From contig PARE01000059.1 in the NCBI GenBank assembly GCA_002709525.1, positions 3,490-43,542 of the forward strand: a stretch of DNA of 40,053 nt, in the 5' to 3' direction. Positions 26,818-35,262 of this stretch are shown here, in pieces. How positions within the stretch are numbered: position 1 is the stretch's first letter; each line of letters opens with the position of its first letter. The translations under genes were made by a program, and so were the position numbers. The notes below the pieces were generated by a model. It ran no database searches. It saw only the letters and a program-made list of their open reading frames with translations, and was not told the DNA's origin. The DNA is from Magnetovibrio sp. (GTDB lineage Bacteria; Pseudomonadota; Alphaproteobacteria; Rhodospirillales; Casp-alpha2).

Positions 26818-27209
<392 letters not shown>

Positions 27210-27355
27210 ATCTTTCTTTTCCATTGCGAGTTGCGTGCGGATTAAACCACCGTCCAATGCCGTCGAATTGTCATCTTTCCACCGCTGGGTCGCCCTAATG
27301 CCGGTCTAAGCTTTGTCTCAAGAAATACCTTATGTACGTTCTTGGTACGCCACGG

Positions 27356-27380
27356 GTTTTCGGTTCTATCGACCGAAAAC
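27356..27380. repeat. Perfect 9-bp inverted repeat between rnpB and mraZ
   Basis: GTTTTCGGT (27356-27364), loop TCTATCG, ACCGAAAAC (27372-27380). Confidence 0.6.
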
Positions 27381-27411
27381 AGTTTGTTAACCCATAAAAT
27401 GCAACTTTAAA

Positions 27412-27456
27412 CCCGTTGACGCCCATAATAACCCATGATATCCCATTATATCCCAA
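27412..27456 (-). promoter_or_regulatory. Five direct repeats at 10-bp periodicity, candidate MraZ-binding array
   Basis: CCCGT-TGACG-CCCAT-AATAA-CCCAT-GATAT-CCCAT-TATAT-CCCAA; on the minus strand TGGGN boxes with 5-nt spacers. Confidence 0.75.
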
Positions 27457-27607
27457 ATATTATCTTGGTGATATTCGGGTCAGGTCTGTATTCGGAGATT
27501 GGCGCCGACATCATCGAGTGCGGTCTTTGGTAACGGGAGGTTAGGGGTATGCCAGCCTCCTTCACGTCAGAAGAATCTGGCGAAACGTACGTTGAATGGG
27601 GTCTCTG

Positions 27608-28081
27608 ATGGCAATGTTCGTCGGTCGCCATATAAACAAAATTGACAAGAAGGGGCGTGTATCTGTCCCGAAGTCCTTCCGCGCGGCCTTACAATCCGTC
27701 GGTAGCAATATTCTGTATCTATACCCGCTTTTCAAGGTGTCCGCCGTTGAGGCCTGTGATGAGGCATTTATGGCACGCCTTAGCGCTAGCCTTGACGACT
27801 TGGATATGTTCTCAGACGAACAAGACGATCTGGCCGCTATCGTTATGGAGAGCGCACACGCATTGAATTTTGACACGGAAGGTCGTGTCCAGTTGCCAAG
27901 AGAGATCGTGGAGCACGCTGGTATCTCGTCAGAAGCTGTCTTCGTCGGACGCGGTGCAAGGTTTCAAATTTGGACGCCGGCGGCTTATGAGGCAAATCGG
28001 GCCCAAGCCTTCGAGCGCGCTCGGGCCCGTGACGCGACACTAAGGCTGCTGCCTGACGATGATCGGGAGAGCGGTAAATGA
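27608..28081 (+). CDS. mraZ: Transcriptional regulator MraZ
   Basis: MAMFVGRHINKIDKKGRVSVPKSFRAAL, RVQLPREIVEHAGI, VFVGRGARFQIWTPAAYE; first gene of the dcw cluster. Confidence 0.95.
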   Translation: MAMFVGRHINKIDKKGRVSVPKSFRAALQSVGSNILYLYPLFKVSAVEACDEAFMARLSASLDDLDMFSDEQDDLAAIVMESAHALNFDTEGRVQLPREIVEHAGISSEAVFVGRGARFQIWTPAAYEANRAQAFERARARDATLRLLPDDDRESGK

Positions 28082-29019
28082 TCGCCACTCCGCACATTCC
28101 CGTCATGTTAGATGAGGTCATTGAGGCCTTGGCGCCCTGTTCGGGCGCTGTTTATGTCGACGGTACTTTCGGTGCTGGTGGATATTCCCGCGCACTCTTG
28201 GAAACCGCCAACTGCTCGGTCTGGGGCATCGATCGCGACCCCTTGGCCGTGAAAAATGGTGCGCGCATGGCGGCGGATTTTCCGGGCCGCCTTACCGTAC
28301 TGCAAGGTCGTTACGGAGAAATGACGGACCTACTGGCCAATGTAGGGGTCGCGCAAATCGATGGATTGGCGTTGGACATTGGGGTGTCATCGATGCAGAT
28401 CGACGATCCGTCGCGTGGGTTTTCTTTCCGCGCGGATGGCCCCTTGGACATGCGTATGGGTGACGACGGTCAGACCGCCGCCGACGTGGTCAACGAATTA
28501 GCGGAGCGCGATCTGGCCGATATCATTTATAAGTACGGTGAGGAGCGAGCTTCGCGACGGATCGCGCGGGCGATCGTCGAGCTTCGTGGACGTACCGCGA
28601 TCACACGCTCGGCGCAATTAGCGAATTTGGTGCGCGGCGTTGTCGCCAAGTCCCGAGATGGCATCGACCCCGCGACGCGAACTTTTCAGGCGCTGCGCAT
28701 CTATGTGAATGACGAACTTGCCGAATTAGACCGAGGACTGGAGGCGGCGGAGGCGCTGTTGGGGCCTTGCGGGCGTCTAGTGGTAGTGTCCTTCCATTCC
28801 CTTGAAGACCGACGCGTCAAAACCTTCCTTAAGGCCCGCAGCGGTAATGCGGCTCATCCGTCTCGGCACATGCCCGTCGACGATATTGTCGCCGGCGCTC
28901 CCACCTTCCGCTTGATCAAGCAGGGTGCCGTTAAACCTAAAGCGGCGGAAACGCGAGCTAACCCCCGGGCTCGTTCGGCGCGCCTGCGTTGGGCCGTTCG
29001 GACGAGGGTGGCGGTATGA
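28078..29019 (+). CDS. rsmH: 16S rRNA m4C1402 methyltransferase RsmH (MraW)
   Basis: HIPVMLDEVIEAL, DGTFGAGGYSRALLE, LDIGVSSMQIDDPSRGFSFRADGPLDMRM, SFHSLEDRRVKTF. Confidence 0.97.
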   Translation: MIATPHIPVMLDEVIEALAPCSGAVYVDGTFGAGGYSRALLETANCSVWGIDRDPLAVKNGARMAADFPGRLTVLQGRYGEMTDLLANVGVAQIDGLALDIGVSSMQIDDPSRGFSFRADGPLDMRMGDDGQTAADVVNELAERDLADIIYKYGEERASRRIARAIVELRGRTAITRSAQLANLVRGVVAKSRDGIDPATRTFQALRIYVNDELAELDRGLEAAEALLGPCGRLVVVSFHSLEDRRVKTFLKARSGNAAHPSRHMPVDDIVAGAPTFRLIKQGAVKPKAAETRANPRARSARLRWAVRTRVAV

Positions 29020-34173: not shown

Positions 34174-35262
34174 ATGTTATTCCATATCTTAGTCCCCTTG
34201 GCGGACGATTTTGGAGCCCTCAACGTTTTTCGCTATTTGACCTTTCGCACCGGCGGCGCGGTAATCACTGCGTTGATTGTCAGCTTCCTGTTTGGGCCGG
34301 TGCTGATCGAGCTCTTGAAGTCTCGCCAACACGGTGGGCAACCAATCCGTGATGATGGGCCTGAGAGTCATCTACTTACCAAAAAGGGTACGCCTACCAT
34401 GGGTGGAATCCTAATCCTTATTGCGTTGTCCAGTGCGACGCTACTGTGGTCGGATTTGAGAAATGGGTTTGTGTGGGCAGCGCTGGGAGTCACTTTGGCG
34501 TTTGGAATGATAGGTTTCTTGGATGACTATTTGAAGGTTTCGAAGCGGGACAGCCGCGGCCTTACGAGCAAGTTAAAATTCCTCCTGCAAGTTGTAATCG
34601 CCGCCGTTGCCACATTCTGGATAATGCGCCATCTGCCGCCTGATTTGGCTACAACGCTAGCTATTCCATTCGTCAAGAATTTGCTTTTGGACCTGGGATG
34701 GATGTTCATTATTCTTGCGGTGATGGTCATGGTTGGGGCGTCCAATGCGGTCAACCTAACTGACGGACTGGATGGTTTGGCAATCGTACCGGTGATGATT
34801 GCCGCCGGCGTATTTGCCCTAATCGCATATTTGAGCGGTCATAGTGTTTTCGCCAACTACTTGCAGATTCACCATGTGACTGGGGCCGGTGAATTGGCCG
34901 TTTTCTGCGGTTCCTTGGTAGGAGCAGGTCTGGGGTTCCTGTGGTTCAACGCCCCACCGGCGAAGGTATTTATGGGTGACACAGGTTCGCTAGCGTTGGG
35001 CGGTGCTTTGGGTGCTATTAGCGTAATTACTAAACACGAGTTGGTGTTAGCTATCGTCGGCGGTTTGTTTGTGTTGGAGACCATTTCGGTAATCGTTCAG
35101 GTGATGTCCTTCAAATTAACGGGCAAACGTGTGTTCGCTATGGCGCCCCTACATCATCATTTTGAGAAGAAGGGTTGGGCGGAAAGCACCATCGTGATTC
35201 GCTTTTGGATCATCGCGACAATTCTGGCTTTGGCGGGTCTTTCGACCCTAAAACTTCGGTAG
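34174..35262 (+). CDS. mraY: Phospho-MurNAc-pentapeptide transferase MraY
   Basis: [72 protein letters not shown]. Confidence 0.98.

Follow-up and report, generated by a model that had tools for sequence, protein, structure and literature searches.

A predicted MraZ operator interwoven with the mra/dcw core promoter in Alphaproteobacteria

Five CCCA-like boxes with an exact 10-bp period precede mraZ, the first gene of the mra/dcw operon, in the alphaproteobacterium Magnetovibrio sp. It is quite probable, in our assessment, that this array is an MraZ operator superimposed on the sigma-70 promoter of the operon, and that MraZ represses its own synthesis by covering the core promoter. The array recurs upstream of mraZ across the class in a single orientation, promoter motifs are woven into it, the start site that they define agrees with a published leader, and it is linked to mraZ; from these observations we infer MraZ binding, promoter occlusion, and the repressive sign.

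Genomic context of the array

The analyzed window is a stretch of 40,053 nt (assembly GCA_002709525.1, contig PARE01000059.1). Features relevant to this study are as follows (coordinates, strand, description).

26819-27212, plus: rnpB, RNase P RNA class A, upstream neighbor of mraZ (Rfam)
27383-27395, plus: conserved upstream element TTTGTTAACCCAT, containing the outlying CCCAT
27391-27395, minus: outlying CCCAT, 21 bp before box 1 (20-21 bp in relatives)
27412-27416, minus: predicted MraZ box 1, CCCGT on plus and ACGGG on minus; overlaps the first T of the -35 element
27416-27421, plus: predicted -35 element TTGACG; located in the box 1/box 2 spacer
27422-27426, minus: predicted MraZ box 2, CCCAT; within the 17-bp promoter spacer
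27432-27436, minus: predicted MraZ box 3, CCCAT; the extended -10 TG begins with the T of this box
27436-27444, plus: predicted extended -10 element TGATATCCC, hexamer 27439-27444 (TATCCC), 17 bp after the -35 element
27442-27446, minus: predicted MraZ box 4, CCCAT; the second half of the -10 hexamer is formed by the CCC of this box
27451, plus: predicted transcription start of the mra/dcw operon; leader of about 160 nt
27452-27456, minus: predicted MraZ box 5, CCCAA; at the predicted transcription start
27611-28081, plus: mraZ (Pfam PF02381, E 5.1e-16; both D-x-x-x-R motifs present, DKKGR and DTEGR)
28078-29019, plus: rsmH/mraW, second gene of the operon (Pfam)

The operon order, mraZ and rsmH to mraY, was derived from open reading frames, the names of the later genes being read from their sequences; the array is situated, as expected of an MraZ operator, upstream of mraZ as the first dcw/mra gene. 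Sequence relatives of the MraZ protein with solved structures are themselves MraZ proteins (1n0e, 9qlg, and others). In several relatives (L004, L007, L022), mraZ is likewise preceded by an rnpB-like 3' end, and rnpB adjoining mraZ is on record for Pelagibacter (PMC2704228). A metagenome-assembled genome (MAG) of the same genus (G001) contains a second, divergent MraZ gene (L024, on C175) that has no CCCA array and is possibly a contamination; an apparent second array in this MAG (C80) turned out to be the upstream region of the orthologous mraZ at a contig end.

The plus strand of the array reads aaCCCGTtgacgCCCATaataaCCCATgatatCCCATtatatCCCAAatatt, i.e., five boxes with exact 5-nt spacers in the orientation opposite to that of E. 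coli, and the array ends 154 bp upstream of the conserved mraZ start, the ATG at 27611. Read on the minus strand, these are direct repeats with the TGG(G) core and the 10-bp period of MraZ operators. An earlier note, made from the sequence of the window, had described the five boxes, an interleaved TTGACG, a lone sixth CCCAT, and a distance of about 150 bp to the start. Its box starts and spacers were exact at every coordinate, the hexamer and the sixth box are located at 27416-27421 and 27391, respectively, the distance was measured as given above, and the E. coli-like spacing that it had noticed agrees with the TGGG boxes of strain K-12, which also have 5-nt spacers. Its view of the outermost CGGG as degenerate holds in part: the CGGG is present, but in 94 aligned arrays the respective column has A in 80% and G in 19%, and hence this box is not merely degenerate.

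Both simulation and counts across the genome rule out a chance origin of the array. When the intergenic region was simulated 20,000 times with a first-order Markov model, runs never exceeded two units, whereas four exact CCCA units, or five with CCCG, are observed there. Apart from the mraZ array, the 3.18-Mb assembly contains a single match with three or more CCCA units at 10 bp, located within mraY. This match consists of three TGGG units with a 10-bp period on the plus strand (34464-34487); about 0.4 are expected genome-wide by chance. An RNA element was also considered and rejected: with transcription predicted to start at box 5, the majority of the boxes lie outside the transcript, and Rfam gave a real score for rnpB alone.

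Conservation and orientation

The array was found upstream of mraZ in all 21 close relatives whose upstream DNA was long enough (MAGs of Rhodospirillales and of other Alphaproteobacteria), beginning roughly 110-280 bp ahead of the start codon (at the surveyed loci, start codons were picked by rule). CCCA is always on the mraZ coding strand in these relatives, though much of the surrounding sequence differs.

Among 180 alphaproteobacterial mraZ upstream regions, which include same-genome repeats and comprise 127 distinct arrays, at least three CCCA boxes at the exact 10-bp period were found in 137 and at least two units in 165; about a quarter of these loci have fewer than three exact boxes. 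None of the 180 loci has three TGGG or GTGG units, i.e., the opposite orientation. Conversely, arrays of three or more GTGG units, read on the coding strand of mraZ, are present in 46 of 71 non-alpha loci (E. coli and 70 loci from further classes of the phylum), and three CCCA units in none. Coding-strand GTGG repeats were also observed in Bacillus velezensis, Paenibacillus, Subdoligranulum, Nonomuraea, and Legionella, so that the Bacillota and Actinomycetota named here share the non-alpha pattern; Burkholderia stagnalis has weaker GTG repeats, again on the coding strand. The CCCA orientation is seen in Sinorhizobium, Shinella, Rhizobium leguminosarum, and Tistrella.

Given the absence of coding-strand arrays from all 180 alphaproteobacterial loci vs. 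their presence in 46 of 71 others, with outgroups in agreement, reversed boxes are a feature of Alphaproteobacteria. The note had read the boxes on the strand opposite to mraZ, and the orientation stands, but it is a class-wide trait and not a local oddity; the alignment across the class that the note had proposed as a check finds the array kept beside orthologous mraZ, at 137 of 180 loci in one orientation. All non-alpha arrays seen have their boxes on the coding strand, and the array of the window does not. Coding-strand orientation is a common habit of known MraZ sites and not a binding requirement, the alphaproteobacterial array being a variant; from its wide distribution, the coding-strand orientation is probably ancestral. 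As the array is oriented opposite to every non-alpha operator examined, the recognition mode is not simply transferable from E. coli.

Linkage of the array to mraZ

With one mismatch allowed, the strict pattern CCCATN5CCCATGNTATCCCA occurred in 78 of 144 genomes of the class. It yielded 89 matches, 88 of them within 1 kb of mraZ and the remaining one near the end of a different contig; no match occurred in those of the 144 genomes that lack an mraZ match, and the reversed control pattern matched once across all 144. Two-mismatch matches elsewhere in the relatives were treated as chance.

For genomes in which the MraZ profile gave no match, 30 regions upstream of rsmH were inspected. One of these genomes (G095) has a partial array and an mraZ that the profile had missed. 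The array is absent from 27 of the other 29 regions and is represented by remnants in two (G172, G330). G172 (L273), with no detectable mraZ, keeps CCCATTGACGCCCAGCTATTCCCATGTTATTTT but has lost boxes 4 and 5, and its -10 element is TATTTT instead of TATCCC, while the remnant in G330 is a decayed TTGACGCTCCCAGAGGCCCATGTTAGCCC. These are single cases, and such decay is expected if the CCC of the -10 element is held by MraZ. Thus, the array is kept with mraZ and lost without it, as an MraZ operator should be. Synteny, restriction of the array to mraZ across genomes, its loss together with mraZ, and the shared 10-bp period strongly support the interpretation of the array as an MraZ operator, which was offered in the earlier note.

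A predicted sigma-70 promoter woven into the boxes

Alignment of 94 arrays on TTGA gave the consensus CCC(A/G)TTGACGCCCATnnnnTCCCATGnTATCCCAnnnnnnCCCA, in which spacer 1 is the -35 element TTGACG and spacer 3 is the extended -10 element TGnTAT, followed by the CCC of box 4, whereas spacers 2 and 4 are nearly free. Per-base conservation of CCCA is about 91-100% in boxes 2-4 and 72-85% in box 5. A test independent of this alignment was applied to the 127 distinct arrays, selected by CCCA periodicity alone: TGnTAT is present in 118, TTGAC in 111, and both in 108, counts that are not independent events since the loci, although sampled from many families of the class, are related by descent. The two elements are separated by 17 bp (87 arrays) or 18 bp (21 arrays), with no other spacing within 15-20 bp, in keeping with the 16-18 bp of sigma-70 promoters. 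Upon shuffling of the non-box bases, a mean of 0.06 arrays had both elements (maximum 2).

A generic promoter scan reported a different match, ATGATA-N17-TATTAT (27435-27463), which was rejected, as its second hexamer is outside the conserved columns; the scan skipped TTGACG/TATCCC because it required T at the last -10 position. That TTGACG could be a -35 element, as suggested in the note, is supported by its conservation, its fixed spacing to the extended -10 element, and the agreement with a published start.

With +1 set seven nucleotides after the -10 element, the predicted leader of Sinorhizobium meliloti Ak57 is 171 nt, and the S. meliloti mraZ leader in a published comparison is 170 nt (PMC5089854), which checks the method outside the organism of the window. 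Predicted leaders are 159-192 nt at ten loci of the presumed family Rhizobiaceae. Loci of the presumed Rhodobacteraceae have degenerate boxes, with predicted leaders of 246-295 nt in 7 of 13; the mraZ leader of Rhodobacter sphaeroides was mapped at 268 nt (PMC5089854). At four loci of this set (L290, L293, L296, L298), degenerate boxes of the form TTGnnn...CCCATG..ATCC are located about 280-330 bp before mraZ. An Rfam search of the presumed Rhodobacteraceae leaders yielded no matches. Since the degenerate boxes are at the expected position of the UpsM promoter, the UpsM sRNA may be controlled by MraZ.

The upstream element

The element TTTGTTAACCCAT is conserved in upstream regions L002-L019 and resembles the orphan S. 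meliloti Motif 2, TTTGTTAACCAT (PMC3616915). The element also resembles a CtrA half-site. TTAAC is found 28-29 bp before the -35 element in 26 of 111 arrays, in order-level relatives. A full CtrA site (TAA-N7-TTAAC) has two half-sites 7 nt apart, and only one TTAAC is read in 27380-27460. The element may combine a further partial box with a site for a second factor. A CtrA motif and the binding of NtrX and CenR have been reported upstream of alphaproteobacterial mraZ, and hence other regulators also act there.

Comparison with known MraZ systems

In E. coli K-12, TGGG is found at positions 392, 402, and 412 of the locus (L054), with 5-nt spacers, on the mraZ coding strand, i.e., at -43, -33, and -23 from the start and downstream of TTGACA/TAAACT. 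This Pmra operator (TGGGN-N5, three units) is like the array of the window in its TGGG core, exact 10-bp period, and position upstream of mraZ in the dcw operon. The E. coli boxes, however, are on the coding strand, downstream of the -10 element and within 20-43 bp of the start codon, whereas those of the window are on the opposite strand and overlap the -35 element, the -10 element, and the predicted start. This comparison is based on the K-12 sequence and on papers published after the original study of E. coli MraZ. E. coli MraZ is a repressor that binds upstream repeats (PMC7761207). MraZ is described as an octameric ring with AbrB-like folds, and Burkholderia cenocepacia MraZ binds its own promoter fragment in EMSA (PMC7761207). 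The B. cenocepacia site PmraBc (four 7-nt repeats with 3-nt spacers) likewise consists of 10-bp direct repeats at the mra promoter, but it is downstream of the -10 element, overlaps the start, and has a GTG motif; at the Burkholderia locus examined in this study, this motif is on the coding strand.

The Mollicute MraZ site, AAAGTG[T/G], also occurs as direct repeats upstream of mraZ and has a GTG core (PMC8475190); it differs in its flanks, and MraZ has been called an activator in mycoplasmas by one group, while Mycoplasma genitalium MraZ behaves as a repressor (PMC8475190). The R. sphaeroides UpsM/mraZ promoter shares with the window a long mraZ leader, and the presumed Rhodobacteraceae set has boxes at the expected promoter position; it differs in that these boxes are degenerate and a terminator-derived sRNA lies between, and the text searched for it contains no description of an MraZ array. 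Neither a description of an alphaproteobacterial MraZ operator nor MraZ-DNA binding data for this class were found in the open-access literature searched.

Proposed mechanism and alternatives

MraZ made from the first gene of the operon would occupy several adjacent TGGG boxes, whose 10-bp spacing offers the same DNA face to successive subunits. Bound MraZ would cover the -35 element, the spacer (boxes 2 and 3), the -10 element (CCC of box 4), and the start site (box 5), and because of this coverage it should exclude RNA polymerase. Such mutual exclusion would result in negative feedback on mraZ and the downstream division and cell-wall genes. Repression is the most likely sign of regulation, by analogy with E. 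coli and M. genitalium.

The main rival explanation is that MraZ binds the array but activates transcription, improving the use by polymerase of the poor -10 element TATCCC. The hexamer is indeed off consensus at three positions, all occupied by box 4, and an activator role of mycoplasma MraZ is cited in PMC7761207. We nevertheless consider activation unlikely, as the overlap of boxes and promoter elements on the same DNA favors exclusion, MraZ acts as a repressor in both E. coli and M. genitalium, and TTGACG with an extended TG is plausible as a promoter without an activator.

Slightly less probable still is that the array serves another conserved alphaproteobacterial regulator, e.g., CtrA, CenR, or NtrX. 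The reports on these three regulators upstream of mraZ and the conserved element TTTGTTAAC just upstream of the array are compatible with this, but the array is restricted to the vicinity of mraZ and has disappeared or decayed in genomes that lost this gene, the CtrA (TAA-N7-TTAAC) and NtrX (GCA-N9-TGC) motifs are unlike CCCA-N6, and the 10-bp period and TGG core are common to known MraZ boxes. Finally, although the -35 and -10 elements are among the best conserved parts, selection on the promoter alone, with CCCA periodicity a by-product of promoter geometry or phased DNA bending, is very improbable, since the conserved CCCA bases are mostly where a sigma-70 promoter has no need of them, CCC displaces -10 consensus bases at a cost without a binder, and the intervening spacers 2 and 4 are free.

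Returning to MraZ as the ligand and repressor, we lean, with less confidence, toward an evolutionary scenario in which the operator was re-created in reverse at the base of Alphaproteobacteria and fused with the core promoter. About 45 bp would then encode both, the -10 element being half promoter (TAT) and half repressor box (CCC), with direct promoter exclusion throughout the class instead of a downstream site. If true, the promoter pays for its own repression site and reverts to TATTTT upon the loss of MraZ.

MraZ is a very widespread regulator, yet descriptions of its action differ between species, some reporting repression and others activation. For Alphaproteobacteria, among them Sinorhizobium, a model of the cell cycle, an operator shared across the class and set in a fixed promoter geometry leads to the clear prediction of promoter exclusion, and the array provides a simple search pattern for the mra promoter. 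It also represents a natural experiment on the ways in which bases may serve a repressor site and a promoter at once and in which orientation may be reversed during evolution.
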